Assembly: GCA_016926955.1 (NCBI GenBank)
Contig: JAFGNN010000049.1
Span: 1-53,846, forward strand
Length of the DNA stretch: 53,846 bases
Reading direction: 5' to 3'
Origin: Spirochaetales bacterium
GTDB taxonomy: Bacteria; Spirochaetota; Spirochaetia; Treponematales; UBA12059
Part shown: piece by piece, positions 34,963 to 52,516 of the stretch
How positions within the stretch are numbered: the first letter of the stretch is position 1
How the letters are laid out: every line of letters starts with the position of its first letter
Notes under the pieces: generated by a model
Databases searched by the model: none
Told to the model about the DNA's origin: nothing
The model's input: only the letters and a program-made list of their open reading frames with translations
Translations under genes and position numbers: made by a program

Positions 34963-36003
34963 TCATCGCGCGCTTTCGAGTATCCCCTCGAAGTAGGCTT
35001 CATTCGCGAGCCAGATGTCCTCGAAGGCGGAAACGTTGAGCGCATGCAAGGAGTCTTGCGCGAGCTTGACGACAAAGGCCTGGACATTTCGGACGCCACG
35101 CTTGTCCGACAGGGAAAAGGCCAGGGTGACGAGCCCGTCGCGCTCCATGATGCGCACGGTATCGAAATCGATCCAGTCGTCCTGGATGAGCAGCATGGCC
35201 TTGAGGAACCAGGCTGTCGCCTCGTCCGGATCGGCCCCGGCGATGGGCATCGACTCGACGCTGACCTGCGAGTCGCGGATCGTCCTGAGCGCGAGCCAGT
35301 AGCCGCCGGGGACTACTTCGTCGTTCCTGGTCCAGCGCTTGTCCAGCGCGACCGAGAAGGCGCCGAGGTCCACCCTGCCGGATCGCGCCTTGTCGAGCGC
35401 GGGGGGAGCCTCCGGCAGGGCGGTCTCCGCGGGTGCCCGGGGCAGGGTCTCGAGAAAACCGGACTGCTCTTCATAGTCGATCAAGCCGGCGGCCACGAGC
35501 CGGTACGAGCGCCCGGATTTTGACTCGTGCCGGATCCCGAGGAAGCCGAACAGCGGCACGGCCTTGCCGAACTCGAAGTACAGCGAATATGGAGGATCGC
35601 TTTCTTCCCAGCGATCCTCCACCTCGGTCATCCAGCCGATGGCGTCCGCGCGGTTCTTCCGGAGGCTCAGAAAGTTGAGAAGGTCGATGATCGCCTGAAA
35701 ATGGCCATGCTCGTCGGGTTTCACGTCACCCTGCACATCGCCGAGTTCCAACCCGTCGGCACCGAGATCCACGACGCTGGCGACGAAGCGACGCTCGCCC
35801 GAAGCCCCGGGGCCGACGCTTCGGACCACGAAGACATGCGCTGCCTCTCGCACGCCCAGATACCAGTACCCGCGGAGATAGGCATCGGCGCCGCGCTCGT
35901 CGGAGTACCAGGCATATTCGCCGCTTACCAGAAAATCCAGCGACTGTGCATGGACGGAAAGGGCGACAAGCGCCAATACGACGAGAGTCCGGATTTTTCG
36001 CAT
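34963..36003 (-). CDS. Exported protein of unknown function, paralogue B
   Basis: A 346-residue paralogue of the next downstream gene, with signal peptide (RTLVVLALVALSVHAQ). Shared landmarks: GEYAWYSDERGADAYLRGY near the mature N-terminus, PPYSLYFEFGKAVPLFGFLG in the middle and SAFEDIWLANEAYFEGILES at the C-terminus. The ATG at 36003 follows GAGGTG closely; a GTG two codons upstream is possible. Probably periplasmic or surface-exposed. It is divergent from the gpx-ohrR operon; a gap of 137 nt separates the starts and holds the OhrR-type operator on the gpx side. Confidence 0.78.
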   Translation of the reverse strand: MRKIRTLVVLALVALSVHAQSLDFLVSGEYAWYSDERGADAYLRGYWYLGVREAAHVFVVRSVGPGASGERRFVASVVDLGADGLELGDVQGDVKPDEHGHFQAIIDLLNFLSLRKNRADAIGWMTEVEDRWEESDPPYSLYFEFGKAVPLFGFLGIRHESKSGRSYRLVAAGLIDYEEQSGFLETLPRAPAETALPEAPPALDKARSGRVDLGAFSVALDKRWTRNDEVVPGGYWLALRTIRDSQVSVESMPIAGADPDEATAWFLKAMLLIQDDWIDFDTVRIMERDGLVTLAFSLSDKRGVRNVQAFVVKLAQDSLHALNVSAFEDIWLANEAYFEGILESAR

Positions 36004-36092
36004 AAGCACCTCGCTCTGGCGGAGGGCCGCGAGCGGCGCCTCGACGCGAAGGAACTATAGCAACTCGGTTTCGAAGGGGGCAAGGCAAGTAC

Positions 36093-37910: not shown

Positions 37911-39704
37911 CTAGGACGCGCTACCGGGCTCGCCACGGCCCTCGCCGCCGCGGGAGGAAGCGGCCGCGCCCGCGGCATGCCGCGTCGCGCCTTCCGGGTC
38001 GGCGGGCGCCGACTCGAGCAGCCAGCGCGCCTGGTAGGGAGCGAGCGTGACGCGGGGGCGGTCCACGAACTCGCCCGAAATCGCGTCGAAGGAGCCCCAC
38101 GGCACCTCAAGGGTGAAAGCGTCACCGGAGACGTTGGCCAGAGCCAGGACGCGATTCCCCGGCGCGCCGCGGGCCAGCGCGAGGACGCGCGGATCCAGGG
38201 CGATCACGGCCTGTGGCGAACCCGGCGCGAAGGCGGGCAGGTCGCGGCGAACGCGGATCATGGCGAGGAGGCGGCTGGACACGCGCGCGCGCAAGCCGTC
38301 CCCGGCGAGTTCCGCTTCGAGCGCGGCAAGGTCGAGCTTCTCGCGGTTGATGCGCCGCGCGATGCCCGACTCCTCGACGCCCGCCGACCAGTTCCGCGAC
38401 CCCAGCAGGCTGTGGACGTAGATGCCGGGCATGCCGTCCAGCGCGAGCAGGATGGCGTGGGCCGCGCACATACGGTCCGCGCGTCCGCCGTCGTCCGCTT
38501 CGGGCGGAGACAGCGCGTCGAGGTAGTTGATGTTCAGCTCGTAGGGCGAGCGGCTCCCGTCAGCGGCGCTCCGGTACCCGACCCTGCCGCCCCGCTCGAG
38601 CGTCGCCCGGACGAGCGCGTCGCGCCCGGCGTCGTCCAGGATGCCCTCGGTGGGCCGCAATCCGATGCCGTCGTGCGAGGCGAGGAAGTTGAACCAGGCG
38701 CAGCCCGACGGCAGGGCCGTCGCTCCGAGCGACGCGATCCAGGCCCCGAGCCGTTCGGCGGACCCGGAGAGGAAGGCGTGAAGGACGAGCGGCGGCAGCG
38801 GGAACTGGTACACCAGCCCCGCCTCGTCGCCCTCGCCGAAATATGCGACGTTCTCGTCGTGGGGCACGTTGGTCTCGGTGATGATCCGCGTGCCCGAGCC
38901 CGCCGCGTCGAGGGCAAGCCGGGCCAGCTTCACGATGGCGTGCGCGCCCGGAAGGTTCAGGCAGGACGTCCCTTCCTCTTTCCACACGAAGCCGACCGCG
39001 TCGAGGCGCAGGTAGCGCGCGCCGCGTTCCGCGTAGAAGAGCAGGGTGTCGAGCACCGCGAGCAGGACCTCGGGCTCGGAGAAGTCGAGATCCGCCTGGT
39101 CGGCGCTGAAGGTGGTCCAAACCAGCTCGCGGCCGCGTGAGGTCTCGAAGGGCGTGAAGAGCGGCAGGGCGCGCGGCCTGACGACCGATGAATAGTCGGC
39201 GCCCTCGCGGGCCTTCGCGAAGAAGCGCCCGTAGGGAGCCTCGCCGCGCAGGAAGGCGCGGAACCAGGGGTTGGAGACCGAGGCGTGGTTGACCACGGCA
39301 TCGAACATGAGCTCGTAGCCGCGCGCGAGCTCCGCGACGTCCTCCCAGTCCCCGAGCTCCGGGTCGACCATCCGGTAATCCGACACCGAGAACCCGTCGT
39401 CCGAGGTGGACGGGTACATGGGCAGGATGTGCACGGCCGTGACGGTCCCCCGCGCGTGCCGGTCCAGGAAGCGGCCGAGCGTGGCGAGCGGAGCCTCGCC
39501 TTCCGTGCCGATCGAATCGCCGTAGCTGATCAGCATTACTTCGCCGACCCCGGGCGGAGCAGAAGGGGCCGGGTCGCGCCGCGTCCCCAGTCGTTCCGCG
39601 CACGCGTCCACCAGGGCCGCCAGCCGTTCGGCCACCGCTCCGGCGCGAGCTCCGTAGAGGCGGGCGAGCAGGGCTTCCGTCCGCTTCAGGCTAGCGCTTT
39701 CCAT
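37911..39704 (-). CDS. ycjM: GH13_18 phosphorylase (YcjM/sucrose phosphorylase-like)
   Basis: A 597-residue GH13 subfamily 18 enzyme, whose members split alpha-glucosides with phosphate to glucose 1-phosphate (sucrose, glucosylglycerol or glucosylglycerate phosphorylases). Visible features: LISYGDSIG, HILPMYPSTSDDGFSVSDY, FDAVVNHAS, nucleophile Asp235 (YLRLDAVGF), acid/base Glu277 (IITETNVPH) and Asp345 (LASHDGIG). Early SDDGFSVSDY and WKEEGT are characteristic of this subfamily. By context it corresponds to E. coli YcjM (glucosylglycerate phosphorylase), but the acceptor is not determined. ATG 39704 lies 14 nt inside the GH65 gene. Confidence 0.85.
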   Translation of the reverse strand: MESASLKRTEALLARLYGARAGAVAERLAALVDACAERLGTRRDPAPSAPPGVGEVMLISYGDSIGTEGEAPLATLGRFLDRHARGTVTAVHILPMYPSTSDDGFSVSDYRMVDPELGDWEDVAELARGYELMFDAVVNHASVSNPWFRAFLRGEAPYGRFFAKAREGADYSSVVRPRALPLFTPFETSRGRELVWTTFSADQADLDFSEPEVLLAVLDTLLFYAERGARYLRLDAVGFVWKEEGTSCLNLPGAHAIVKLARLALDAAGSGTRIITETNVPHDENVAYFGEGDEAGLVYQFPLPPLVLHAFLSGSAERLGAWIASLGATALPSGCAWFNFLASHDGIGLRPTEGILDDAGRDALVRATLERGGRVGYRSAADGSRSPYELNINYLDALSPPEADDGGRADRMCAAHAILLALDGMPGIYVHSLLGSRNWSAGVEESGIARRINREKLDLAALEAELAGDGLRARVSSRLLAMIRVRRDLPAFAPGSPQAVIALDPRVLALARGAPGNRVLALANVSGDAFTLEVPWGSFDAISGEFVDRPRVTLAPYQARWLLESAPADPEGATRHAAGAAASSRGGEGRGEPGSAS

Positions 39705-41970
39705 CAATAGCTTCTCCCCGCGCGAGGCGCGCTCTTCGTCCGTACAATTCTACCTCGATCGGGTCGCCTTCGAGTAGTTCTATCCGGGCGCCGCCGCCCC
39801 GGGCTTCGACGCGGAGGCGCCGCCCCCGGAAGCGGAGCGGGAACGCGAAGCCCCGCCAGGCCGTCGGCAGCCTCGGCTCGAAGCGCGGAACGCCGTCCGC
39901 GACGCGGAAGCCGCCGAAGCCCATGACAAGCGCCATCCAGAGCGCGCCGAAGCCGGCCGCGTGCACGCCGTCGTCGGAGGAATGGGGACGGGGCCCCAGA
40001 TCCACCTCGCGCGCCTCGATGAAGCGACGGTACGCTTCGTCCGTCTCGCCCAGGCGCGCCGCGACCGCGGCGTGGATGGCCGGGCTCAGCGAAGAATCGT
40101 GCACCGTGCGGGGTTCGTAGTAGCGGTAGGTCGCGAGCGCGACCTCGCGCGTGAAGCGTTCGGGCATCAGGAAAAGCAGCATGACCGCGTCGGCCTGCTT
40201 GAGCACCTGCAGCCCGTTCAGGTCCTCGCGGGAATGCTCTCGCAGGATCGCCTGCTTGCGCTCGGCCGCCCGGTACGCGGAGACGTCCAGCTCCGGAAGC
40301 GAAAGGAAGCCCGCATCCTGGGGAAGGACGCCGTCCCCGCGCGGCTCGGGCAGGTGGATCCGCGCGGAAAAGTCGCGGAGCCGCTCCAGCTCCGCCTCCG
40401 CGGGCGCCGCGGGATGCCCCGCGCGCGCCAGCTCGAGCGCGGCGTCGACGCAGGCCTTGGCCAGGTAGTTCGTGTAGGCATTGTCGTCGACATGCTCGCT
40501 GTACTCGTCCGGCCCTACCACGTCATTAATATGCAGCGCGCCATCCGGCCCCTCCGCCGCGCGCGAGCGCCAGAACCGGGCCGCCTCGAAGACGAGAGCG
40601 GCGCCGCCCGAATCCATGAAGGCGTCGTCGTCCGTCGCCTCGCGGAATTTCGCCACTGCCCAGGCCAGGTCCGCGGTGACGTGGTGCTCCTTGAGGCCGG
40701 ACCAGACCGGCGCCAGGTTCCCCGTGTGCGGATCGAGGCCGGCGCGCTCCGGCGTCTCCTCGTCCCCCGTGGCCGCGGATTCCCAGGGAAACATGGCGCC
40801 CTCGTAGCCTCGGGCGGCGGCGCGCCGCCGGGCCGCGTCGAGCCGGCGAACCCGGTACTCGAGGATGCCCCGGGCCAACTCGGGTCGCCCGTACTGCAGG
40901 AAGGGAAGCATGAACATTTCCGCGTCCCAGAACACGTGGCCGCGATACCCTTCCCCGGTCAGCCCCTTCGCCCCGATGGAACTCGAGCCCCCGTCGTCGG
41001 GCGTCATGGCGCGGAGGTGGTAGAGCGCCACGCGGAGGGCGAGCTGGTCGTCGAGCGCATCGGTGTCGAGGTCCGGGGCGGATTCCCGGAAGTCCGACCA
41101 TGCGTTCCGGCTCTCCGCCAGGAGCCGGCCGTAGTCGCCCGGATCGGGGAGCGCGACGGGCTCGGTCGCGTCGAGGGCCCCGGACGAAGCGCGGACCAGG
41201 ACGAAGCGCTCGAAGACGAGGACCCCGCCGCGCTCGATCGCGAAGGAGTCCTCCCGGACGATACGGCGCCGATCGACCTCGAAGCGCGGATGGCCGGGCC
41301 GTTCAGCCGCCCGTTCCGAAGCGCCGGCGAGCCCGGACACAAGGCTCAGCTCGAGCTCGAACCCGGAGCCGGGCGCGCGCGCCGCGTAGCGCAGGATCGA
41401 GCGCCCCAGGACCCGCTGTTCGCCTTCGGCGAAATGCTGGACGCCCGCGTTGGCGACCCGGCCGTCGATGCCGAAGCGCAGCTCCACGGAACCGCGGCCG
41501 TCGAGCGGCCTCGCCTCGAAGCGGAAGGCGATCAGGCGCGGGTCGGCGAGCGAGGCGAAGCGCGCGTGGCGCAGGCGCCAGGTCCGACCCGCGGCGGTAC
41601 GCACGAGCGCGTCCCGCGCGAGCTCGCCCGAACGAAGGTCCAGGGCGCGGCGGTACTCGAGCGGAGCCAGGCGGAGCAGGTCCAGGCGCTCGCCGTCGAG
41701 CCGGGCTTCCATGGCCGCCGGGTCGGGGCAGTTCGGCAGCTCGACGCTCTCGCCCTCCATCGCGCGGCCGAAGCTGCCGGCAAAGTAGAGCCCCCGGCGC
41801 TGGCCGGCGTAGTCCTCCTCGTGCGCGGCGCGCAGGCCGAGATAGCCGTTGCCCGAGCACATGAGGCTTTCGCACTTCCCGAACAGCTCGGGCTCGAAGC
41901 GCGTTTCGACGAGCGACCACGCGTCCGCCGAGGGCTCGAGCCGGGGCGGGCGTCCGTCATCCCGTCTCAT
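39691..41970 (-). CDS. ycjT: GH65 disaccharide phosphorylase (YcjT/kojibiose phosphorylase-like)
   Basis: A 759-residue GH65 enzyme, full length for the family. The N-terminal beta-sandwich (CSGNGYLGLRAAHEEDY) is followed by the (alpha/alpha)6 barrel with GEGYRGHVFWDAEMFMLPF, the catalytic acid Glu489 in VVGPDEYSEHVDDNAYTN, the phosphate-site segment DSSLSPAIHA and the C-terminal jelly roll. GH65 phosphorylases release beta-glucose 1-phosphate from kojibiose, maltose, trehalose or nigerose; the neighbourhood points to the YcjT type (kojibiose). Start ATG overlaps the YcjS-like stop (ATGA). A beta-phosphoglucomutase to use the product is not in the window. Confidence 0.9.
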   Translation of the reverse strand: MRRDDGRPPRLEPSADAWSLVETRFEPELFGKCESLMCSGNGYLGLRAAHEEDYAGQRRGLYFAGSFGRAMEGESVELPNCPDPAAMEARLDGERLDLLRLAPLEYRRALDLRSGELARDALVRTAAGRTWRLRHARFASLADPRLIAFRFEARPLDGRGSVELRFGIDGRVANAGVQHFAEGEQRVLGRSILRYAARAPGSGFELELSLVSGLAGASERAAERPGHPRFEVDRRRIVREDSFAIERGGVLVFERFVLVRASSGALDATEPVALPDPGDYGRLLAESRNAWSDFRESAPDLDTDALDDQLALRVALYHLRAMTPDDGGSSSIGAKGLTGEGYRGHVFWDAEMFMLPFLQYGRPELARGILEYRVRRLDAARRRAAARGYEGAMFPWESAATGDEETPERAGLDPHTGNLAPVWSGLKEHHVTADLAWAVAKFREATDDDAFMDSGGAALVFEAARFWRSRAAEGPDGALHINDVVGPDEYSEHVDDNAYTNYLAKACVDAALELARAGHPAAPAEAELERLRDFSARIHLPEPRGDGVLPQDAGFLSLPELDVSAYRAAERKQAILREHSREDLNGLQVLKQADAVMLLFLMPERFTREVALATYRYYEPRTVHDSSLSPAIHAAVAARLGETDEAYRRFIEAREVDLGPRPHSSDDGVHAAGFGALWMALVMGFGGFRVADGVPRFEPRLPTAWRGFAFPLRFRGRRLRVEARGGGARIELLEGDPIEVELYGRRARLARGEAIDGKR

Positions 41971-43016
41971 GCTTCGTCCGGGCCGACGGCGCGTCCGAGC
42001 TCCGCGGAGCGGTAGAGCAGGTCCACGAGCCTCTGCAGCTCGGTTCCCTGCCGCGCCCCGGCCGCGGGTTCCGACCCGGTGCGGCAGGCGCGGACGAAAT
42101 CGCGGACGCATTCGAAGTGCGCGTCGGACTCGCCGGGGAAGGGCAGGCTCGTATCCGTCAGGAAGCCCTCCGTTTCGCCGTACAGCTCGAGGGGGAACAC
42201 CGAGAGTCCCGCGTCCGATCCGTACAGCTCGACGTTCATGCGGCTCCGCTCCTTCATGTTCAGGGCGAAGGAGGTCTCGAGGGAGAGGCTCACCCCGCCC
42301 TCGAAACGCACGAAGCCGAACAGCGAATCCTCGACCCCGTAGCGGTCAGGATCCCACTTCCCCATGAGCCCCGGCCCCGGCCGTCGGCCGAGCTCGGCGT
42401 AGGCGGCCGCGCTCGCCTCGACGACCTTCGGAAAGTCCATCAGATAAAGGGCGAGGTCGAGGGCGTGCACGCCGATGTCCATGAGCGGGCCGCCGCCCTG
42501 TATCGCCTTGTCGCCGAAGGAACCCCAGCCCGGAATGCCGCGCCGCCTCAGGGCGACGGCCTTGCCTGCGTACACGCGGCCGAGCCTTCCCGCCGAAATC
42601 AGCGCGCGGGCGGCGCGGGCTTCGGGGGCAAAGCGGGTCTGGAAGCCGTAGGCGAGCACCTTGCCGGCGCGGGCCGCGGCGGCTTCCATCGAGGCGGCTT
42701 CTGCCGCGTTCATCGCGGGGGGCTTTTCGCACAGGACGTGGAGGCCCGCTTCGAGCGCGCCGAGAGTCGCCAGCGCGTGGAAGCGGTTGGCGACGCAGAC
42801 GCTCACCGCGTCGACGCCGCCCGCGGCGAAGAGCTCCCCGGCCGAAGCGTAGATCCGTTCGATGCCGAAACGCGCGCCGAGCGCAGCGCCCCGAGCGGGG
42901 TCGGAGCTGGCCAGGGCCACGAGCTCGACCTCGTCCGGCATCCGCGCGTAGGCGGGAAGGTGGATGTTCGCCGCCGCGTTGCCGGCGCCGATGATGCCGA
43001 CCCTGAGCGCGCTCAC
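41967..43016 (-). CDS. ycjS: Gfo/Idh/MocA dehydrogenase (YcjS-like)
   Basis: A 349-residue NAD-dependent sugar dehydrogenase. The Rossmann motif VGIIGAGNAAANIHLPAY opens the protein; the Gfo/Idh signature HVLCEKPPAMNAAEA supplies the catalytic Lys, and the C-terminal sheet contains GGGPLMDIGVHALDLALYL with the catalytic His. In the E. coli pathway YcjS interconverts D-glucosides and 3-keto-D-glucosides. Start GTG at 43016 overlaps the preceding stop (GTGA). Position between the YcjR-like epimerase and the GH65 gene matches the ycj order. Confidence 0.87.
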   Translation of the reverse strand: MSALRVGIIGAGNAAANIHLPAYARMPDEVELVALASSDPARGAALGARFGIERIYASAGELFAAGGVDAVSVCVANRFHALATLGALEAGLHVLCEKPPAMNAAEAASMEAAAARAGKVLAYGFQTRFAPEARAARALISAGRLGRVYAGKAVALRRRGIPGWGSFGDKAIQGGGPLMDIGVHALDLALYLMDFPKVVEASAAAYAELGRRPGPGLMGKWDPDRYGVEDSLFGFVRFEGGVSLSLETSFALNMKERSRMNVELYGSDAGLSVFPLELYGETEGFLTDTSLPFPGESDAHFECVRDFVRACRTGSEPAAGARQGTELQRLVDLLYRSAELGRAVGPDEA

Positions 43017-43825
43017 GACAGGAATCCCGCCGCCGAGAGGAGGCCGCGGACGTGGAGCGCCGATGCCCGATAGGCTTCCGCGGGGTTCTCGCCGCGTACC
43101 CGGCACTCGATCGAAAAAGCGCCGCCGTAGCCCGCCGCCTTGAGCGCCCGCAGGCCGGGCAGGAAGTCCAGGTGGCCGTCGCCCGGCTGGTAGCGATGCG
43201 AGTCGGCCAGGTGGACGTGCCCGACAAGGGCGGCATGGGTCGCGAGGCTTTCCTCGATGCGCGCTTCCTCGATGTTCATATGGTAGAAATCGGCCGCGAT
43301 CCTGACCCGCCGGAACCCGCCTTCCTCGATGTAGCCGGCGGCCGTCTCCAGCAGGTTCACCATGTGGTCCTCGTAGCGGTTCAGCGGCTCGAGGTACAGG
43401 TAGGAGTCGCCGGCCTCCGCCGCTTCCTCGAGCCGGGTCAGGGAATCGAGCAACGCCGCCCGGTCGCTTGCTTCGTCGCGGGGCGGGACCATGGGCGGCA
43501 AGCGAAGCGAGAACATGCCCCAGGCCGCGGGCGCGACCACGCCGCTGCCGCCGAGCGCCCGCACGCGCCGGAGCATGAGGGCAAGGTCCTCGCAGGCTTC
43601 CAGGCGCTTCGCTTCTTCGAAGTGGCCGATCCAGCCCCGGTAGCCGCCGCAAGCCGCGACGACGCCGACGCCGCTCGAGTCGCGCGCGCGGAGCAGGTCC
43701 TCGAAACGCCCCAGCAGCAGGGCGCCGTCAACCTCCATCGCGTCGAAGCCGAGCGCGCCGGCCGCCTTGAATTTCCCGGTGAGGTCCGCGGGCAGGAAGG
43801 GCTTGTCGTGGGTCGCGAGGATCAT
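43013..43825 (-). CDS. ycjR: Sugar epimerase/isomerase, TIM barrel (YcjR-like)
   Basis: A 270-residue xylose-isomerase-like TIM barrel. Metal-ligand segments can be seen: LYLEPLNRYEDH (Glu), VRIAADFYHMNIEEA (Asp and His), VGHVHLADSHRYQPGDGHLDF (His, Asp) and FSIECRVRG (Glu). The pattern is that of tagatose-3-epimerase relatives; YcjR of E. coli epimerises C4 of 3-keto-D-gulosides. Length agrees with YcjR (about 260). Start ATG overlaps the YcjQ-like stop (ATGA), and the product fits the step between the two dehydrogenases. Confidence 0.85.
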   Translation of the reverse strand: MILATHDKPFLPADLTGKFKAAGALGFDAMEVDGALLLGRFEDLLRARDSSGVGVVAACGGYRGWIGHFEEAKRLEACEDLALMLRRVRALGGSGVVAPAAWGMFSLRLPPMVPPRDEASDRAALLDSLTRLEEAAEAGDSYLYLEPLNRYEDHMVNLLETAAGYIEEGGFRRVRIAADFYHMNIEEARIEESLATHAALVGHVHLADSHRYQPGDGHLDFLPGLRALKAAGYGGAFSIECRVRGENPAEAYRASALHVRGLLSAAGFLS

Positions 43826-44895
43826 GGGACGCTCCGGCCGAACTCGACGCCGAGCTTGACGGCCAGCTCGGGCGATCTGTCCACGTAGCGCATGAAACCC
43901 TCCGCGGAAACGGCGAAGGGAACCACGGGATCGACTATCCTCTCGCAGTCGAGGCGGCCGCGGACGAGCATGTCCCAGCACGCGTCCTCGATGCGCTTCC
44001 GGTCCCAGCGCGGGTGGTCACGGTTCGGCTCGCTCGCCGCGCGCGAGAACACCAGCTCGGCGGCGTTGAAATGCGCTTCCCTGCCGAGCCGGAGATCGTC
44101 GATCACCTTCGAGAAGGCCACGTACGAGATCCGGCCGCCGTAGGCCAAGCCGCGCAGGGCCGCCTGCAGGGCGGATCCGTGTCCCGAGGTCTCGACGACG
44201 GCGTCCACGCCCCGCTTGTCCGTCGCGCGCTTCAGCTCGAGCCCGACGTCGGTCGCGGGATCGCTCGGGTCGAGGGCCAGGTCGGCGCCGTACTCGAGCG
44301 CGAGTTCGCGGCGGCGAGTGATCGGATCGACGACGACGAGCGTTCCCGTGCCGATGGCTCGGATCATCTGGACGGCGAGCAGGCCGATGGCGCCGAGCCC
44401 GAAGACGCAGGCCGCGTCGCCGGGGCGCAGCAGGGCGTCGCGCACGCCGCCGAGGGCGAACTGGGCCGGGTCGTAGCAGACGGCCGCCTTCGGCGAAACG
44501 CCTTCGGGAACCTTGCGCAGGCGGAAATTGTCGACGGCCCGGACGATCTGGGTCTCGCGGATGCCGCCGTAGGAGCATACCCGGTCCCCGATCGAGAAGG
44601 CGGACACGTCGGCGCCCAGCTCCACGACGCGGCCCACCCACATGTTGCCGGGGTTCCACTCGCCGAAGACCACGGCCGGCGTCTCGTCCTTGTCGCGGGC
44701 CATGAACGCCCGCCATTCCGGATCGTACTTTTCCCGGTCGAAGGGATTCAGCCCGCGGAAATCGACCAGCTCCGTGCCGTGCTTGGGAGAGGCGAAATCG
44801 ACTTCGACCAGGATCTCGTTGCGCGCGAGCGACCGATCACGGTAGGTCCTGAGTTCGGCGACGCGCGGCGCCGTCGCGATGAGAGCCTGGGGCAT
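43822..44895 (-). CDS. ycjQ: MDR-family dehydrogenase (YcjQ-like D-guloside 3-dehydrogenase)
   Basis: A 357-residue medium-chain dehydrogenase. The NAD-binding motif is GLGAIGLLAVQMIRA, with an acidic residue after the next strand (VVVDP) indicating NAD preference. It carries stretches that I associate with YcjQ: TAPRVAELRTYRDR, SPKHGTELVDFRG, CYDPAQFALGGVRDA, LAYGGRISYVAFSK, LGREAHFNAAELVFSRA, SEPNRDHPRWDRKRIEDACW. In E. coli YcjQ oxidises D-gulosides at C3. AGGAAGGA precedes the ATG. First gene after lacI on the same strand, 40 nt downstream, so it is probably read from the lacI promoter. Confidence 0.9.
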   Translation of the reverse strand: MPQALIATAPRVAELRTYRDRSLARNEILVEVDFASPKHGTELVDFRGLNPFDREKYDPEWRAFMARDKDETPAVVFGEWNPGNMWVGRVVELGADVSAFSIGDRVCSYGGIRETQIVRAVDNFRLRKVPEGVSPKAAVCYDPAQFALGGVRDALLRPGDAACVFGLGAIGLLAVQMIRAIGTGTLVVVDPITRRRELALEYGADLALDPSDPATDVGLELKRATDKRGVDAVVETSGHGSALQAALRGLAYGGRISYVAFSKVIDDLRLGREAHFNAAELVFSRAASEPNRDHPRWDRKRIEDACWDMLVRGRLDCERIVDPVVPFAVSAEGFMRYVDRSPELAVKLGVEFGRSVP

Positions 44896-44935
44896 GATTC
44901 CTTCCTCGCTTGGTACGCGGCGGGCCGGACCCGCC

Positions 44936-45928
44936 CTACCTCGTTGTCGAGCGGGCGACTACCCGCGATGAAATGGTTATTTCCATGGGGCGTTCGTGCG
45001 GCTGCTTGCCCGCCCAACGATCGGACAGGTAGCCCGCCACCGCTTCCGCCTTTTCCTTGAGATGCTGGTTCATGGTGGTAAGGCCCCACCATTCCGCCTG
45101 CGCGATGTCGTCGAAGCCCATGATGCCGAGCGCGCCCGGTACGGGGAGGCAGCGGCGCCTGCACGCCTCGAGTCCGCCGAGGGCCATCACGTCGCAGGAG
45201 AAAAAAACGCAGTCAGGCGCTTCGGGCAGCTCGAGCAGGCGCTCCATCGCTTCCATGCCGCCGTGGAAATCGAGCGGTCCCGTCTCCTCGGGCAAGGTCG
45301 CCGTATCGATGCCCGCCTGCTCGAGCGCGGCGCGGTATCCGGCGCGCCGGTCGCGGAGCGTCTCGTTCTCGAAATTCCAGCCGACGAAGGCGGGCCGCCG
45401 GTACCCGCGGCCGAGCAGGTAGGAGGCCGCGTCGAAGCCGCCCGAGTAATTGTTGTTATTGATGGAGAACAGGTAGGGGTTCCTGGACTGAACCACGACT
45501 GAGGGCACTGTATGCCGTTCGAGCAGGTCGGCCGCCTGGCGGTCCAGGAGCAGGCTGAACGCCACCACGGCGTCGTACTGGTCGAGCGGAAGCTCGCGGA
45601 AACGCTGGTATTCGAAGAAATTCCGCTCGCCTTCGAGATCGAGGACGATCAGGTGCTTGTCGAAGGGAAGCAGGACCCGCTGCAGTTCCCGGAAGAATTC
45701 GATCACCGAATCGAGATGGAGGTTCGGGACGGCGAGAGCGACCATGCCCGACTGCTGACGCTTCGCCCGCCGTCGGGCTACCGGGGTGTACTCGAGCTCG
45801 CGCATCGCGTCGAACACCTGCCGCCGGGTGTCCGGGTTGACCTTGCCGGGTTCGTTCAGCACCCGGCTGACCGTGCTGAGGCTGACGCCCGCCTTGCGGG
45901 CCACGCTGGCGATCGATGCTCGTCCCAT
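44936..45928 (-). CDS. LacI-family transcriptional regulator of the sugar locus
   Basis: A 330-residue LacI/GalR-family regulator. Helix-turn-helix and hinge: ASIASVARKAGVSLSTVSRVLNEPGKVNPDTRRQV, ELEYTPVARRRAKRQQS. The ligand domain contains SRNPYLFSINNNNYSGGFDAA and GIMGFDDIAQAEW. By position the ligand is a glycoside of the adjacent pathway or a breakdown product. The ATG at 45928 lies exactly 6 nt after the -10 of a near-consensus promoter (TTGACA-17-TATAAG), so the GAGG in front of it would be outside the mRNA and the message is predicted leaderless. It is divergent from the binding-protein operon with two palindromes between. Confidence 0.93.
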   Translation of the reverse strand: MGRASIASVARKAGVSLSTVSRVLNEPGKVNPDTRRQVFDAMRELEYTPVARRRAKRQQSGMVALAVPNLHLDSVIEFFRELQRVLLPFDKHLIVLDLEGERNFFEYQRFRELPLDQYDAVVAFSLLLDRQAADLLERHTVPSVVVQSRNPYLFSINNNNYSGGFDAASYLLGRGYRRPAFVGWNFENETLRDRRAGYRAALEQAGIDTATLPEETGPLDFHGGMEAMERLLELPEAPDCVFFSCDVMALGGLEACRRRCLPVPGALGIMGFDDIAQAEWWGLTTMNQHLKEKAEAVAGYLSDRWAGKQPHERPMEITISSRVVARSTTR

Positions 45929-45934
45929 GCCTCG

Positions 45935-45963
45935 CTTATACCGCCCGAGCACCGTCTTGTCAA
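45935..45963 (-). promoter_or_regulatory. lacI promoter, leaderless
   Basis: Minus-strand TTGACA (45963-45958), 17 nt, TATAAG (45940-45935), then 6 nt to the ATG at 45928. Near-consensus. The transcription start expected 6-7 nt past the -10 falls on the start codon. Confidence 0.8.
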
Positions 45964-45968
45964 TTTCA

Positions 45969-46034
45969 ATTCATGAATCACTCATCCGATGATGAAACTT
46001 TTTCATTGACAGCCTGACATGGCGGTGCTAGCGT
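45969..46034 (+). promoter_or_regulatory. Operators and promoter of the sugar ABC operon
   Basis: Two palindromes between the divergent genes: ATTCATGAAT (45969-45978), just upstream of the lacI -35, and ATGAAA-CTT-TTTCAT (45992-46006), which touches the -35 TTGACA (46006-46011) of the plus-strand promoter. The -10 is TAGCGT (46029-46034) at 17 nt. Both palindromes contain ATGAA/TTCAT half-sites, close to the TGAAA..TTTCA cores of LacI-family operators. The LacI protein encoded alongside is the natural ligand. Confidence 0.68.
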
Positions 46035-46040
46035 TCGCGG

Positions 46041-46080
46041 GAAAGCCCGGATTCCCTTCAATTCAAAGGGAGCGGCTTTC
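46041..46080 (+). promoter_or_regulatory. Leader hairpin of the binding-protein mRNA
   Basis: GAAAGCC (46041-46047) pairs with GGCTTTC (46074-46080) and inside it CCCTT pairs with AAGGG around a short loop. The structure starts about at the predicted mRNA 5' end and ends 13 nt before AAGGAGG. Probably a 5' stabiliser; no anti-ribosome-site pairing is seen. Confidence 0.5.
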
Positions 46081-46104
46081 GCCCGCGTTCATAAGGAGGC
46101 AATC

Positions 46105-47388
46105 ATGAAACGTCGGCTCATCGTCGTCTTTGTCGCGCTGTTGGCCTTGCTCGCTTCGTGCGCGAAGCCGGCGAGCGCACCGGTCGGCTTCGAATTCATG
46201 CACACGTACGTCGAGGAAGATCGCCTCAAGGTGATCCAGGGACTCATCGACGCCTTCCAGGCGGAGAACCCCGGCTTCGAGGTGAAGCAGGTGCCGGTTT
46301 CTGAAGACGCGTTCTGGACCCGCATCACCACGCTCATGCAGGGCCGCCAGCTGCCCGCGCTCATCGACGTGTCGGTCGACCAGGCCCGCCTGCTCGCGGC
46401 TTCCGACGTCGTGGACGTCGATACGTGCACCTCGGTGGTCCAGGATGTCGGCGTCGACCGCTTCTACGCGGGCGCCGTGGCCGTGCTCCGCGGCGACTCC
46501 GGCAAGCTCTTCGGCGTCCCCCTGACCGGTTGGGTGCAGGGCATCTGGTACCGCAAGGACCTGTTCGCCGAGAAGGGGCTCGCCGCCCCGGAGAAATGGG
46601 ACGACATCCTCACCGCTGCCAAGGCGTTCCATTCGCCCGCTGACAAGAAGTACGGCATCGTCTTCGCGACGGAGGCCACCGACTTCACCGAGCAGACCTT
46701 CTCGCAGTTCGCCCTTTCAAACGGCGCCGAGCTTTTCGACGCCTCCGGCAAGCCGGCCTTCAACTCGCCCGCCATGCGCCGCGCGGTCGAATTCTACCGC
46801 GAGCTCTACAAGTACAGCCTGCCCGGCTCCAACGGCTTCACCCAGGTCAAGGACTCCTTCTCGGGCGGGAACGCCGCCATGGTCGTCTATTCCACCTACA
46901 TCCTGGGCGGCCTGTACGAACAGGGCATGGCCGACAAGGTCGGCTTCGCGGTGCCCGAGGGCGTCGCTCCCGCGTCGTTTGGCATGGTCTCCACCGAGGT
47001 CATCACCAACACCGTGCCCGAGGCCCAGCGCCAGGCGGCCGCGGCGTTCATGAAATTCCTGCTCAGGAACGAGAATTACATTCCCTGGATGCACATGGCG
47101 CCCGGCGGCCCGAACCCGGTCCTCAAGGGCGTGGCGTCCGACCCCGCCTATCTCGGGCACCCGCTGCTCAAGGCCTACGGCGACACCGCGAAGGCGATCC
47201 CGGAAGCCTTCGCCGACCTGGCCATGTTCGGCTTCCAGGACGGCAAGACCAATCCGAAGATGGGCGAGATCAGCGCGCGCATGATCATCCCCACCGCGCT
47301 CAACAACATCCTCGTGCTCGGGGCCGATCTCGACGGCGAGCTTGCCAAGGCCCAGAAGGCCATGGAAGACGTCGTGGCGGGTCGCTGA
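46105..47388 (+). CDS. Sugar ABC transporter substrate-binding lipoprotein (YcjN-like)
   Basis: A 427-residue extracellular solute-binding protein, family 1. The lipoprotein signal ends at LALLASC (Cys19). The family pattern is present: FQAENPGFEVKQVPV, GKLFGVPLTGWVQGIWYRKDLF, APEKWDDILTAAKAF, FSGGNAAMVVYSTYI. AAGGAGG precedes the ATG. First gene of a binding protein-permease-permease operon divergent from lacI; it delivers the glycoside probably processed by the ycjQRST-type enzymes. A perfect hairpin after the stop is likely to make the binding protein more abundant than the permeases. Confidence 0.92.
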   Translation: MKRRLIVVFVALLALLASCAKPASAPVGFEFMHTYVEEDRLKVIQGLIDAFQAENPGFEVKQVPVSEDAFWTRITTLMQGRQLPALIDVSVDQARLLAASDVVDVDTCTSVVQDVGVDRFYAGAVAVLRGDSGKLFGVPLTGWVQGIWYRKDLFAEKGLAAPEKWDDILTAAKAFHSPADKKYGIVFATEATDFTEQTFSQFALSNGAELFDASGKPAFNSPAMRRAVEFYRELYKYSLPGSNGFTQVKDSFSGGNAAMVVYSTYILGGLYEQGMADKVGFAVPEGVAPASFGMVSTEVITNTVPEAQRQAAAAFMKFLLRNENYIPWMHMAPGGPNPVLKGVASDPAYLGHPLLKAYGDTAKAIPEAFADLAMFGFQDGKTNPKMGEISARMIIPTALNNILVLGADLDGELAKAQKAMEDVVAGR

Positions 47389-47394
47389 CGCGCC

Positions 47395-47424
47395 GGACGG
47401 CCCGCCGCCCCAGGCGGGCCGTCC
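47395..47424 (+). terminator. Intercistronic 12-bp hairpin after the binding-protein gene
   Basis: Perfect stem GGACGGCCCGCC / GGCGGGCCGTCC with a GCCCCA loop, then CTTC. Because it lies between a binding-protein gene and its permeases, partial termination or protection of the upstream mRNA is likelier than full termination. Further GC-rich palindromes follow up to the permease start. Confidence 0.65.
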
Positions 47425-47497
47425 CTTCAAGCCCGGCTCGCGCCGGGCGCATCGACGCGGCCGGCGCGAGCGCGCCGGCGCGCTCCGGAGGCCAACC

Positions 47498-48394
47498 ATG
47501 CGAAGCCCGCCGCCGAGAATCCCGCCGAGCCTCGAGGCGCAGAACCGGAGGCTCGGCCTCCTCTTCGTCCTGCCCGCCGTCGCCCTCGTTTTCGCGGTCA
47601 TCATCTACCCGGTGTTCTTCAACCTCTACCTCAGCCTGTGGAAACCGGCCCTGAACCCCGCCAAGCCCGACCTCTTCGTCGGCTTCGGCAACTACGCACG
47701 ACTGCTCGCCGACCCCCAGTTCTACCGCTCGCTCGCGCTGACCGCAGTCTACGTGGCGCTTACGGTCGCCGGCTCCACCCTGCTCGGCGGCTCCGCCGCC
47801 CTGCTCATGAACCGGGATTTCCGGGGACGCAAATTCGCGCGCTCGGCGCTGCTCCTGTCGTACGTGATGCCCGTCATCTCGTCGGTCTTCGTCTGGATCT
47901 ACCTGTTCAATCCGCTCTACGGCATGGTGGACTACGCGCTGGTCGACCTGCTCGGGCTCTTCGAGGTGGCGCCGCAGTGGTTCGACGACCCGGTGCTCTC
48001 GCTGCTCCTGGTCTGCCTCTTCGACATCTGGCGCATCTTCCCCTTCGCGCTGATCATGATCCTCTCGTCGCTGCAGTCCATCGACGGGGCGGTGTACGAG
48101 GCGGCCCTCATCGACGGGGCGCGCCCCTTCCGGATTTTCAGGTGCATCACGCTGCCCGAGATCCTGCCGGTGGTGGCCTCGGTCGTGACCCTGCGCTCGA
48201 TCTGGAACTTCTACAAATTCGAGGACGTCTACCTGCTGACCAAGCAGGTGCCCATCCTGGGCGTATACCTCTACCGGACTGCGTTCACCGTCAACGATCT
48301 CGGCCTCGCCTCGGCCATCTCCGTCGTCATGTTCGCGCTCGTCATGGGCATCGTGTTCGTCGCCGCGGCGCGGCGCAAAGGAGCGTCGTCATGA
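47498..48394 (+). CDS. Sugar ABC transporter permease 1 (YcjO-like)
   Basis: A 298-residue inner-membrane permease of the MalF type with six predicted helices, the first being LGLLFVLPAVALVFAVIIYP. The EAA loop that docks the ATPase reads EAALIDGARPFRIFRCITLPEI. CGGAGG precedes the ATG. It overlaps permease 2 by ATGA. Length agrees with YcjO (about 293). Confidence 0.92.
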   Translation: MRSPPPRIPPSLEAQNRRLGLLFVLPAVALVFAVIIYPVFFNLYLSLWKPALNPAKPDLFVGFGNYARLLADPQFYRSLALTAVYVALTVAGSTLLGGSAALLMNRDFRGRKFARSALLLSYVMPVISSVFVWIYLFNPLYGMVDYALVDLLGLFEVAPQWFDDPVLSLLLVCLFDIWRIFPFALIMILSSLQSIDGAVYEAALIDGARPFRIFRCITLPEILPVVASVVTLRSIWNFYKFEDVYLLTKQVPILGVYLYRTAFTVNDLGLASAISVVMFALVMGIVFVAAARRKGASS

Positions 48395-49227
48395 AGCGGA
48401 AAGCCGCCAGAAAGCTCGCGCTCGACGCGCTCGTCGCGCTCATCGTGCTGGTCGCCGTGTCGCCCTTCGTGGTCATGCTGGGTACGGCCCTCAAGACGCC
48501 GGCCGAATCCGTCGCCTACCCGCCGAAGATCATGCCGGCGCGACCGACGCTCATGCACTTCGCCGACGTGCTCGATCCGGCGAAGTTCCCCTTCGCCCGC
48601 TACTTCGCCAACAGCTTCATCGTCGCGTTCAGCACGGCGCTGATCGCCGTGGTCGTCGGGAGCGTCGGCGCGTACGCCTTCGCCAAGCTGCCCGTGCCCG
48701 GCAAGCGCTTCCTGGAGTCGGGCACCTTCGTCGTCTACATGTTCTCCGGCATCCTGCTGGTCGTGCCGCTCTTCCGCATCATCGCCGCGCTCGGCCTCTA
48801 CGGCAGCCGCGTCGCGGTGGTAATCGCCTGCCTGGTCTCCACGCTACCAGCGGCGCTGTCCATGCTCGGCAACTACTTCCGCACCATCCCCGACTCGCTG
48901 GAGGAAGCCGCGTTCATGGACGGGCTTTCGCGGCTCCAGAGCCTCTGGCGCATCATCCTGCCGCTGTCCCTGCCCGCCATCATGTCGGTGTTCGTGTACG
49001 TGTTCATGATCGCGTGGAACGACTTCCTGTTCGCGTCCATCTTCCTGTCCGACCCCGCCAAGATGACCCTGCCCATCGGGCTCCGGCAGTTCTTCAGCTC
49101 GCAGGATTACGTCTGGGGAAGGATGATGGCGGCCTCGCTGCTGACGGGACTGCCGGTGGTGATCATGTTCGCGGCCGTGGAAAAGTACATCACGGGCGGC
49201 CTGACCTCGGGCGGCGTCAAAAACTGA
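48391..49227 (+). CDS. Sugar ABC transporter permease 2 (YcjP-like)
   Basis: A 278-residue MalG-type permease with six predicted helices and the EAA motif EEAAFMDGLSRLQSLWRIILPL. The C-terminus MFAAVEKYITGGLTSGGVK is the standard MalG ending that contacts the ATPase. The ATG overlaps the stop of permease 1. No ATPase gene follows, so the complex must borrow a shared MsmK/MalK-like ATPase from elsewhere in the genome. Confidence 0.92.
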   Translation: MKRKAARKLALDALVALIVLVAVSPFVVMLGTALKTPAESVAYPPKIMPARPTLMHFADVLDPAKFPFARYFANSFIVAFSTALIAVVVGSVGAYAFAKLPVPGKRFLESGTFVVYMFSGILLVVPLFRIIAALGLYGSRVAVVIACLVSTLPAALSMLGNYFRTIPDSLEEAAFMDGLSRLQSLWRIILPLSLPAIMSVFVYVFMIAWNDFLFASIFLSDPAKMTLPIGLRQFFSSQDYVWGRMMAASLLTGLPVVIMFAAVEKYITGGLTSGGVKN

Positions 49228-49566: not shown

Positions 49567-50823
49567 TTACGCGCCGATGTCCCGCCTGAAGCGCGCCCCG
49601 TCGAAATCGACGGCGGCCGCCAGGGCGAGTCCGTTTTCGCGGGCGCGCACGGAATCCGCGCCGAGCCCGACCGCGGCGAAGCAACGCCCGCCGCCGGTAT
49701 GCAAAATACCATCGGAAGCGCGCGTCGTCGAGGCGTGGAACAGCAGGCCATCCGGATTTTCCGCCTCGGGGAGCGAGCGGACGGCAAGGCCCTTCGGGTA
49801 GGCGCCTGGATAACCCGGCGCCGCAACGACGAAGCCGCAGGCCGCGCGGTCCGGCCGCGCTTCGAAGGTCCGGATCGGCGCTTGATCGAGCCTGCCTTCC
49901 GCCGCGTCCCGGAGCAGTTCGCCGAAGCCTTCCGGAAGGATCGGCAGCAACGACTGCGTCTCGGGGTCGCCGAAGCGGACGTTGTACTCGAGCAGCTTCG
50001 GCCCCGAGGCCGTGACCATGACGCCGAAGAAGACGACGCCGCGATAGGCGAGCCCTTCCGCCGACATACCCGAAAAGGTCGGCTCGACAAGGCGCTTCCG
50101 GATCTCGGCCATGAGAGCGAGGTCCGCCCGCGGCTCCGGCGCCACGGCGCCCATGCCGCCGGTATTGGGTCCCGCGTCACCCTCGAAGGCCTTCTTGTGG
50201 TCGCGCGCCGCGGGCAGGATCGCGAAATCCCTTCCGTCGGACAGCGCGAAGACCGAAAGTTCGAAGCCCTCGAGGAATTCCTCCGCCAGGAGCTCGTCGT
50301 CGGCCAGAACCGCGCGGCCGAACGAAAGCAACTCGACCGGGTCGTCGGACTCGAGGACGCCCTTGCCGGCCGCGAGGCCGCTCTTCTTGAGGACGAGGCG
50401 CCCCGGATGGGCGGCGATGAAGCGCTCGAGCTCTGTCCCCGCTGCCGGGTCCGAAAAGCGGGCGGTGCGCGCGCAGGGCACGCCGTGCCGCTCCATGAAG
50501 GCGCGCGCGAAGGCCTTGCTGGACTCAAGACGCGCGGCCGCGGCGCCGGGACCGAAACAGGGGACGCCCTCCGCGCGCAGGGCGTCCGCCACCCCCGCGA
50601 CGAGCGGCGCCTCGGGACCGACCACGACGAGCTCCGTCCCCGTTTCGCGCGCGGCCGCGACGACAGCGGCGGGATCGTCGGGATCCAGTTGCAGATTGCG
50701 CGCGCCCCGCAGCTCCGCCGTGCCGGCGTTGCCGGGCGCGCAGACGGGCTCGTGGCCTTCGCGCGCAAGCTTCCAGGCCAGGGCGTGCTCGCGCCCGCCC
50801 GAGCCGAGGACCATGACCTTCAC
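49567..50823 (-). CDS. purD: Phosphoribosylamine-glycine ligase PurD
   Basis: GAR synthetase, second step of purine synthesis. The 418-residue ATP-grasp enzyme has VLGSGGREHALAWKL at the N-terminus, VVGPEAPLVAGVADAL, the ATP-binding LVLKKSGLAAGKGV and the metal-binding LLEYNVRFGDPETQ. The GTG at 50823 overlaps the purN stop (GTGA); an ATG three codons in is possible. Last purine gene of the purF-purM-purN-purD order. Confidence 0.96.
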   Translation of the reverse strand: MKVMVLGSGGREHALAWKLAREGHEPVCAPGNAGTAELRGARNLQLDPDDPAAVVAAARETGTELVVVGPEAPLVAGVADALRAEGVPCFGPGAAAARLESSKAFARAFMERHGVPCARTARFSDPAAGTELERFIAAHPGRLVLKKSGLAAGKGVLESDDPVELLSFGRAVLADDELLAEEFLEGFELSVFALSDGRDFAILPAARDHKKAFEGDAGPNTGGMGAVAPEPRADLALMAEIRKRLVEPTFSGMSAEGLAYRGVVFFGVMVTASGPKLLEYNVRFGDPETQSLLPILPEGFGELLRDAAEGRLDQAPIRTFEARPDRAACGFVVAAPGYPGAYPKGLAVRSLPEAENPDGLLFHASTTRASDGILHTGGGRCFAAVGLGADSVRARENGLALAAAVDFDGARFRRDIGA

Positions 50824-51449
50824 CGCGCGCCTCCTTCGGCGGGTCCGCCGCTCGCCCCGGGGCCGATCGCCGCCCGGTCGCGTACGGCATCGACGCGGTC
50901 GAGCATTTCGAGCACGACCCGCGGGTAGAGCCCGTGTTCGAGCTCGTGGACGCGCGTCTCGACCGCCTCGAGCGTCGCTCCAGGCCAGCGCCGGAATTTC
51001 CGCTGCGCGATGACCTGCCCTGTGTCCATCCCTGAGTCGACATAGTGGACCGTGACCCCGAATTCATCGGCGCCCGCGTCGAAAGAGCGGCGGACCGAGT
51101 CGACGCCGGGCCAGGCGGGCAGAACCGAGGGATGCACGTTGACGAGCCGTCCCGCCCAGCGCTCGACGAAGGCCGGCGACAGCAGGCGCATGAAGCCGGC
51201 GAGCGCCACGAGCTCTGTCCCCGCTTCCGAGAGCGCCGCGCCAAGTTCGGCTTCGGCTTCTTCGCGCGACCGCCCCGCCCAAGTGACGTAGCGCGAGGGG
51301 ATGCCGAGCCGCGCGGCCCGTTCCTGCGCGTACGCGTCCTTCCGGTCATGGACAAGCAGGACGAGGCGGTGCGCGCCCCCCTCGAGCGCGAGCGCGAGCG
51401 CCTCGAAGTTCGTACCGTTCCCCGAGGCCAGGACCGCCAGCTTCGCCAA
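50820..51449 (-). CDS. purN: Phosphoribosylglycinamide formyltransferase PurN
   Basis: GAR transformylase using 10-formyl-THF. It has 209 residues. LAVLASGNGTNFEAL holds the phosphate-binding start, and the catalytic Asn-His and Asp lie in LVNVHPSVLPAWPG and YVDSGMDTGQVI. I chose TTG at 51449 because GGGGAGG lies 6 nt upstream and the protein then begins exactly at the family N-terminus; an ATG at 51503 would overlap purM by 34 nt and add an unrelated extension. It overlaps purD by 4 nt. Confidence 0.93.
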   Translation of the reverse strand: MAKLAVLASGNGTNFEALALALEGGAHRLVLLVHDRKDAYAQERAARLGIPSRYVTWAGRSREEAEAELGAALSEAGTELVALAGFMRLLSPAFVERWAGRLVNVHPSVLPAWPGVDSVRRSFDAGADEFGVTVHYVDSGMDTGQVIAQRKFRRWPGATLEAVETRVHELEHGLYPRVVLEMLDRVDAVRDRAAIGPGASGGPAEGGAR

Positions 51450-51469
51450 GGCCGCCTCCCCCCGCCCGC

Positions 51470-52432
51470 TCAGCGCCGGACCAGGCTGCCCATGCGGAAG
51501 CACGCGATGCCGCGAGCGCGGGCGAACTCGAGCGCTTCGTCGGCCGCCTCCCGCGGCACCACGAAGGCGATGCCCACACCCAGGTTGAAGACGCGGCGCA
51601 TTTCCTCCTCGCCCACCTTCCCGCCTTCCTGGATCTTCCGGAAGATGCCCGGCCGCGGCCAGTCCCAGGTGAACTCGCCGCGCAAGGTCGCGGGTATGAC
51701 GCGGTCGAAATTCCCCTCGAGCCCCGAGCCGGTTATGTGCGCGGCGGCGAGGAGCTTCCCTGTCGTCATCAGGTCCATGATTTCGCGCACGTAAATGCGT
51801 GTGGGCGTGAGCAGTTCCTCCCAGGTCGCGTTGTCGTCGGGGTCAACGCACTTGCGGGCCAGGGAATAGCCGTTGGAGTGCACGCCCGAGGAGGGCAAGC
51901 CCAGGATGGCGTCGCCTTCGCGGATGATTTCCAGCTTCGGCAGCATCTCGGTCTTCTCGACAAGGCCGAGGCAGAAGCCCGCCAGGTCGATGTCGTCGGG
52001 CCCGTAGACGTCCGGCATCTCCGCGGTCTCGCCGCCGGTGAGCACGCAGTCCGCCTGCTCGCAGCCGGTCACCACGCCCTTGATGACGTCGCGGAGCACG
52101 CCCTCGCGGATCGTGCCCGTGGCGATATAGTCGAGGAAGGAGACCGGCTTGCAGCCGCAGACGGCCAGGTCGTTGACGTTCATCGCCACGAGGTCGATGC
52201 CGATGGTGTCCCACTTCCCGAGCTTCTTCGCGACGAGCAGCTTGGTGCCGACGCCGTCGGTGGTCGAGAGCAGAACCGGCTCCTTCCATTTCGACGCGTC
52301 GATCGGCAGTCCGCCCGCGAAGCCGCCCAAGCCCTTCGACACGGCCTTCGAAGGCAGGCCCTTGATGAAGTCGGCGAACTCGTCGCCCTTCCGCATGTCC
52401 ACGCCGGCCTTCTCGTAACTGTCGATGCCCAT
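51470..52432 (-). CDS. purM: Phosphoribosylformylglycinamidine cyclo-ligase PurM
   Basis: AIR synthetase. It has 320 residues, slightly short against the usual 340-350. The N-terminal SYEKAGVDMRKGDEF, then LLSTTDGVGTKLLVA (glycine-rich ATP loop), DLVAMNVNDLAVCG, TGGETAEMPDVY, GLPSSGVHSNGYSLARK and HITGSGLEGNFDRVIP are all in place. A GGGAGG ribosome site is 8 nt before the ATG. It lies between purF (84 nt upstream) and purN in a probable operon. Confidence 0.97.
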   Translation of the reverse strand: MGIDSYEKAGVDMRKGDEFADFIKGLPSKAVSKGLGGFAGGLPIDASKWKEPVLLSTTDGVGTKLLVAKKLGKWDTIGIDLVAMNVNDLAVCGCKPVSFLDYIATGTIREGVLRDVIKGVVTGCEQADCVLTGGETAEMPDVYGPDDIDLAGFCLGLVEKTEMLPKLEIIREGDAILGLPSSGVHSNGYSLARKCVDPDDNATWEELLTPTRIYVREIMDLMTTGKLLAAAHITGSGLEGNFDRVIPATLRGEFTWDWPRPGIFRKIQEGGKVGEEEMRRVFNLGVGIAFVVPREAADEALEFARARGIACFRMGSLVRR

Positions 52433-52516
52433 CGCCCGTGCCTCCCGCCGCCAGGTCGGCGGAACGGAACGGGATGCCGGGAAGCGCCGCCGCGCCGCTC
52501 CCCGCCCGCGTCGCGC

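Follow-up and report, generated by a model that had tools for sequence, protein, structure and literature searches.

The closest described counterpart of the locus presented here is the ycjMNOPQRSTUV-ompG/ycjW cluster of Escherichia coli. It encodes a D-guloside 3-dehydrogenase, a 3-dehydro-D-guloside 4-epimerase, a D-glucoside 3-dehydrogenase, a kojibiose phosphorylase and a glucosylglycerate phosphorylase, and most of its enzymes have been studied individually. In the chemistry of this family, Q oxidizes C3, R inverts C4 and S reduces C3 (PMC11543891). Kojibiose releases YcjW from DNA, and the natural effector of YcjW may be "some derivative of kojibiose" (PMC6599011). Growth of strain K-12 with kojibiose as the sole carbon source was unsuccessful (PMC6599011), and no clear ligand emerged when YcjN was screened thermally against compounds that included kojibiose (PMC11543891). 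Glucosylglycerate phosphorylases (GGaPs) are marked by a (T/S)ETN motif at the tip of β5 and a glutamate in loop A (PMC7178133). The correlated-position motif EEAPxx sets kojibiose phosphorylases apart from other GH65 classes (PMC8537180).

Organization of the spirochaete locus

The analyzed stretch of DNA (the window) comprises contig C67 (53,846 bases) in full; the genome to which it belongs totals 3.38 Mb in 94 contigs and is 98% complete. Positions 37911–49227 hold nine genes, all open: eight full-length homologues of YcjM, YcjN, YcjO, YcjP, YcjQ, YcjR, YcjS and YcjT and one LacI-family regulator. Each of the nine proteins falls into its stated family by Pfam, and the eight homologues align with those of E. 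coli MG1655 over 87–99% of the query at 37–54% identity. The minus strand carries the LacI gene and the five enzyme genes. The plus strand carries the genes for an ABC sugar-binding lipoprotein (ycjN-like, 46105–47388; 37% identity to YcjN; the top PDB matches include 8vqk, a structure of YcjN) and for two ABC permeases (ycjO-like, 47498–48394, 54% identity to YcjO; ycjP-like, 48391–49227, 50% identity to YcjP); the two permease genes overlap by 4 nt. The enzyme genes are arranged in the order Q-R-S-T-M, with successive overlaps of 4, 4, 4 and 14 nt as counted from the start codons (ATG for the MDR dehydrogenase, epimerase, GH65 and GH13_18 genes and GTG for the Gfo/Idh gene).

The full nine-gene architecture was found again in a second spirochaete (locus L019, a Spirochaetales MAG). 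Chance does not account for the locus, given that a single E. coli operon supplies the matches for eight of its proteins and that L019 has the complete arrangement as well. A sequence-only reading of this DNA had described the nine genes, enzyme-gene overlaps of 4 to 14 nt and a conserved Q-R-S-T order with ycjM placed after it; ORF and Pfam analyses reproduced the coordinates, strands, families and overlaps, and comparison with MG1655 confirmed the gene order. Its central proposal, a putative ycj-type pathway from gulosides to glucosides that would supply two phosphorylases of a probable spirochaete, is supported by homology, gene order and sequence fingerprints.

A foreign or contaminating origin of the cluster was rejected because neither its G+C content (0.691 versus 0.679/0.701) nor its dinucleotide profile is clearly distinct. 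No RNA elements or tRNAs were found in the window. On the minus strand, two adjacent genes (33786–34832 and 34963–36009) encode paralogous 348-residue proteins with signal-like N-termini. The minus-strand region adjoining the cluster on the other side (49567–53794) contains apparent purF-, purM-, purN- and purD-like purine synthesis genes, as judged by eye from the translations.

The epimerization module

The products of three adjacent minus-strand genes are full-length homologues of YcjQ, YcjR and YcjS in this order. The ycjQ-like gene (43822–44895) encodes a predicted MDR-family D-guloside 3-dehydrogenase (54% identity to YcjQ over 98%), the ycjR-like gene (43013–43825) encodes a predicted TIM-barrel 3-dehydro-glycoside 4-epimerase (46% identity to YcjR) and the ycjS-like gene (41967–43016) encodes a predicted Gfo/Idh D-glucoside 3-dehydrogenase (43% identity to YcjS). 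The best PDB match of the epimerase is a 3-keto-D-glucoside 4-epimerase (6wn6) with an E value of 8e-74, and the next match follows at 3e-21. The epimerase residues E146, D179, H205 and E240, which we take to be the metal-site residues by analogy with the YcjR/tagatose-epimerase fold, are invariant in an alignment of ten divergent relatives. The nearest solved structures of the Gfo/Idh protein are the DgpA-type glycoside 3-oxidoreductases 9m3d and 7xr9. C-glycoside deglycosylation by DgpA-like enzymes was nevertheless rejected, since the cluster that encodes this relative is ycj-type.

Inositol catabolism, which the sequence-only reading had named as an unrelated family with which the dehydrogenases or epimerase might group, was rejected. 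Scores against the NCBIfam models for inositol/keto-inositol catabolism lie far below the curated cut-offs (IolM, 83 versus 450 bits, with the MDR dehydrogenase as the query; IolO, 110 versus 300 bits; IolG, 96 versus 355 bits).

Divergent epimerases (42–45% identity) were observed in seven Paenibacillales loci (L125, L126 and L128–L132), each together with a Q-like dehydrogenase (53–58%) and without S, T and M of the ycj set. These loci usually contain a transporter and often an AraC-like regulator. Their pairing of Q and R without M suggests that the epimerization module serves more than one pathway.

The two phosphorylases

The GH65 protein (ycjT-like, 39691–41970, minus strand) is 40% identical to YcjT, and its best PDB match is the kojibiose phosphorylase 3wiq. 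Its motif reads EEAPW(S/L), in which the final position is alignment-dependent, and fits EEAPxx. Of the +1 subsite residues, W391 and E392 are conserved and serine takes the place of T417 (WES for WET), as in YcjT and most ycj-linked GH65 proteins. Position 416 is tryptophan in both the Caldicellulosiruptor saccharolyticus enzyme and the window protein and alanine in most ycj-linked GH65 proteins. Kojibiose phosphorylases take α-1,2-oligoglucans (PMC8537180), which makes an α-1,2-linked group on the reducing side of the substrate plausible.

The GH13_18 protein (ycjM-like, 37911–39704, minus strand), encoded by the final gene of the enzyme operon, is 43% identical to YcjM. Within the specificity FINGERPRINTS, it shows both GGaP markers, TETN at the β5 tip (as IITETN) and the loop-A glutamate (as SPYE). 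Both markers were detected by a strict regular expression in 72 of the 77 cluster GH13_18 proteins; the remaining five, on inspection, have TETN and YE with altered neighbors. Phosphorylases specific for substrates with no link to the keto-sugar steps, a possibility raised by the sequence-only reading, are thus not what was found: the two proteins carry the expected kojibiose phosphorylase and GGaP fingerprints.

A second GH65 gene of the genome (G000:C47 = L004:7789–10347, plus strand, outside the window) lies divergent from genes for a LacI protein, a binding protein and two permeases. It was rejected as a member of the pathway on account of this LacI/transporter cluster of its own and a trehalose-phosphorylase-like TR.. 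motif.

Regulation

The regulator gene (44936–45952, minus strand; Pfam LacI and Peripla_BP_3) opens the enzyme operon. Its product is not an orthologue of YcjW (24% identity) and shares 69% identity with the LacI protein at the same position in L019. A YcjW-type regulator is present in 72 of 80 related loci. The exchange of the regulator is compatible with ycj-type membership because the YcjW-type repressor stands outside the pathway chemistry.

The intergenic region between the LacI and binding-protein genes contains the palindrome ATGAAACTTTTTCAT (ATGAAA-CTT-TTTCAT, 45992–46006), which is a candidate operator of the LacI protein. The palindrome overlaps the TTGACA −35 box (46006–46011) of the binding-protein promoter, and a TAGCGT element follows 17 nt downstream of this box. 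An identical palindrome occupies the identical place in L019. A search for a CG-centered LacI palindrome found nothing shared in the intergenic region; the shared palindrome is ATGAAANNNTTTCAT, whose occurrence here is the sole match in the window (0.00 expected).

Distribution of related clusters

Among named genomes, L019 encodes the closest relative of the epimerase (62% identity), and a search beyond the named genomes located the same contig position in a genome (G169) of the window's own family. Both results support the probable spirochaetal origin assigned from the letters of the sequence. Such an epimerase (E ≤ 1e-35) occurs in 4 of 394 sampled genomes of the window's order, and two congeners lack it. 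The full cluster is found in two of these four members, the window and L019. Of the other two, L033 has QRS and M without T. In L022, R and M adjoin two further genes, a GH63 MGH1-like (mannosylglycerate hydrolase-like) one and one for a D-2-hydroxyacid dehydrogenase.

The comparison covered the 80 named loci most similar to the window's epimerase, a sample that is uneven across genera and that comprises, besides the window's order, Bacillota and Enterobacterales. The ycjQRS genes are present in 78 of the 80 loci. Among these 78, ycjM is found in 76, and both exceptions (L032 and L057) are truncated where the contig ends. The ycjT gene is likewise found in 76, and clusters that lack it (L033 and L124) retain M. 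Non-canonical ycjQRS clusters were observed beside genes for GH36-like α-galactosidases (L033:13574–15886, L034:4065–6170 and L093:2822–4921) and for a GH4 enzyme (L091:7619–8929).

Clustering of all ORFs revealed one further widespread gene that bears on the substrate, a glycerate kinase gene. It is part of the cluster in 41 of the 45 Bacillota ycjQRS loci, where it shares the strand of the cluster, is in most cases no more than 110 bp away from one of the cluster genes and most commonly stands in the order T-K-U. With the TIGR00045 model (cut-off of 168 bits), one Listeria kinase and the Limnobaculum kinase score 460 and 449 bits, respectively. The genomes of these loci (1.4–7.6 Mb) contain one to four such genes, so that by our estimate ∼1% of 20-kb stretches would carry one by chance. 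The Listeria genome that harbors L024 has no copy besides that of the operon. Only one of the 31 Enterobacterales loci, that of Limnobaculum, contains the kinase gene, between T and U. A link between glycerate kinase and the ycjQRST module was not found in the open-access literature searched and may have been published elsewhere.

In a rapidly computed tree built from concatenated Q, R and S sequences, Enterobacterales are nested within Bacillota, beside Listeria and Enterococcus (SH-aLRT of 99), and the window is joined with L019 in one clade (100); the grouping of L033 with L091 was flagged as a possible long-branch artefact. The kinase of Limnobaculum falls together with the T-K-U kinases of Bacillota, apart from E. 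coli GarK/GlxK (SH-aLRT of 94, no bootstrap). Those found at U-K or M-K positions lie on other branches, an indication that the kinase was recruited more than once. On the simplest reading of these trees, Enterobacterales received the cluster from Bacillota together with its kinase, which most lineages would then have lost; the E. coli operon, too, probably lost its glycerate kinase. The Limnobaculum gene (L077, 14051–15208) is an observed case of a T-K-U glycerate kinase kept in an enterobacterial cluster outside Enterobacteriaceae.

Functions encoded elsewhere in the genome

According to the sequence-only reading, the transporter ATPase and β-phosphoglucomutase (β-PGM) had been dropped. Both are indeed missing from the cluster but have not been lost from the organism. 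The genome encodes a single UgpC/MsmK-type ATPase that scores above the curated cut-off, at a site separate from any sugar permease gene, and a β-PGM domain above the cut-off that is fused behind a GH3 domain. Since β-PGM and the ATPase are variable among other ycj loci too, they are accessory rather than defining components. The GH3–β-PGM protein is encoded outside the window in a single 1121-residue frame (G000:C52 = L100:4523–7888, plus strand), and this fusion would be sensible if the GH3 domain were a retaining phosphorylase that yields β-glucose 1-phosphate. A PF02595 glycerate kinase is absent from the spirochaete's own genome, which contains one MOFRL-type glycerate 2-kinase gene directly after a GntP-family permease gene. 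With the ATPase, β-PGM and glycerate 2-kinase encoded outside the cluster, the pathway can be complete at the genome level.

Proposed pathway and alternative explanations

The presence of a glycerate kinase in most Firmicute clusters suggests that the substrate is a sugar linked to glycerate; more precisely, the rare glycoside of the sequence-only reading is probably a glycoside of glycerate. We assign a probability of roughly 0.6 to the whole pathway as proposed, in which the locus would serve the ycj-type catabolism of an imported glycoside with a probable glycerate aglycone. From gene identity, gene order, fingerprints and comparative gene content, we infer the following route. The YcjN/O/P-like transporter would import the glycoside with energy from the shared UgpC/MsmK-type ATPase encoded elsewhere. 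Q would oxidize the terminal glycosyl unit at C3, R would epimerize C4 of the 3-keto sugar and S would reduce C3, for a net conversion of a D-guloside into a D-glucoside; the sugar acted on by Q-R-S would have to be terminal. The GH65 enzyme would release the terminal α-1,2-glucose of the resulting kojibiose unit as β-glucose 1-phosphate, and the GH13_18 enzyme would convert the remaining 2-O-glucosylglycerate into α-glucose 1-phosphate and D-glycerate, which would enter glycolysis via glycerate kinase.

If one compound is to pass through all of the enzymes in order, the simplest candidate is gulosyl-(1,2)-glucosyl-(1,2)-glycerate. Gulosyl-glycerate would fit as the substrate of a T-less cluster, and kojibiosylglycerate would fit as the natural effector of YcjW. 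D-Gulose glycosides of glucosylglycerate are, to our knowledge, not known as natural products. The glycerate argument is drawn from relatives, the window cluster itself having no glycerate kinase, and the kinase association could follow ycjM alone, as GGaP genes are known to adjoin glycerate kinase genes (PMC7178133). A broader proposal is more tentative, and we put its chances well below even: all ycj operons, including that of E. coli, may be dedicated to one unrecognized gulosylated (or otherwise 3/4-epimeric) glucosylglycerate, with the E. coli operon as a Bacillota-derived copy minus the glycerate kinase.

An alternative is a multi-substrate salvage function for several unconnected α-glucosides. 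Gulosides would be the substrates of QRS, kojibiose that of T and glucosylglycerate that of M, with no compound common to all enzymes, and co-location would reflect shared regulation by α-1,2-glucosides. Each E. coli enzyme has been characterized with its own small substrate (PMC11543891, PMC6599011), and the phosphorylases are separable, given that L033 and L124 lack T but have M. However, M is present in every intact QRS cluster, the Q-R-S-T order is conserved in three phyla with translational overlaps and all enzymes share a single transporter. We consider salvage unlikely.

Two other substrates appear less probable still. Oxidation at C3 gives the same 3-keto sugar from a galactoside and a guloside, so QRS could convert galactosides into glucosides, and a D-galactoside rather than a D-guloside could be the true entry substrate. 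The GH36 α-galactosidase-like genes by L033, L034 and L093 and the GH4 gene by L091 are in line with such a substrate, but most clusters have no α-galactosidase and the annotation of YcjQ in E. coli is D-guloside 3-dehydrogenase, which makes the galactoside improbable. We give hardly any credence to the breakdown of glycerol-linked glycolipid head groups, such as the kojibiosyl- or galactosyl-glucosyl-glycerol of Gram-positive lipoteichoic acid. The GH65 specificity suits α-1,2-linked disaccharides on glycerol, and the second-best PDB relative of the GH65 protein is 4ktr/4ktp, which we take to be the glucosylglycerol phosphorylase of Bacillus selenitireducens. The GH13_18 markers, on the other hand, are those for glucosylglycerate and not glucosylglycerol, and TIGR00045 identifies the linked kinase as one for glycerate. 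A glycerate glycoside remains the preferred substrate.

Comparison with known systems

The spirochaete locus is a new, rare member of the known ycj system, and the new information is comparative. The near-constant glycerate kinase of Bacillota and the constant GGaP define a compound class to test, glycerate glycosides, for which the enzymes and the repressor are already available from E. coli K-12.

The locus resembles the E. coli ycj cluster in its eight homologues, Q-R-S-T order, transporter family and phosphorylase fingerprints. In the spirochaete, M follows T and the transporter genes diverge from the enzyme genes, whereas M leads the E. coli cluster; the spirochaete cluster also lacks ycjU, ycjV and ompG, and its LacI protein is unrelated. 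Bacillota operons of the kinase-bearing type (such as Listeria L024, Enterococcus L044 and Fictibacillus L027) share the M, N, O, P, Q, R, S and T content and the QRST order but have their own glycerate kinase, β-PGM and YcjW-type repressor, which are absent from the spirochaete cluster. DgpA-type systems are related through the structures closest to the YcjS-like protein, but the spirochaete cluster contains no recognized DgpB/DgpC-type C-glycoside lyase and has a ycj-type neighborhood. GGaP systems with a glycerate kinase or GpgS/GpgP (PMC7178133) share TETN and the loop-A glutamate of GH13_18, but they are described for glucosylglycerate itself, whereas the spirochaete locus combines its GGaP-like protein with a 3-keto epimerization module and a GH65 phosphorylase.
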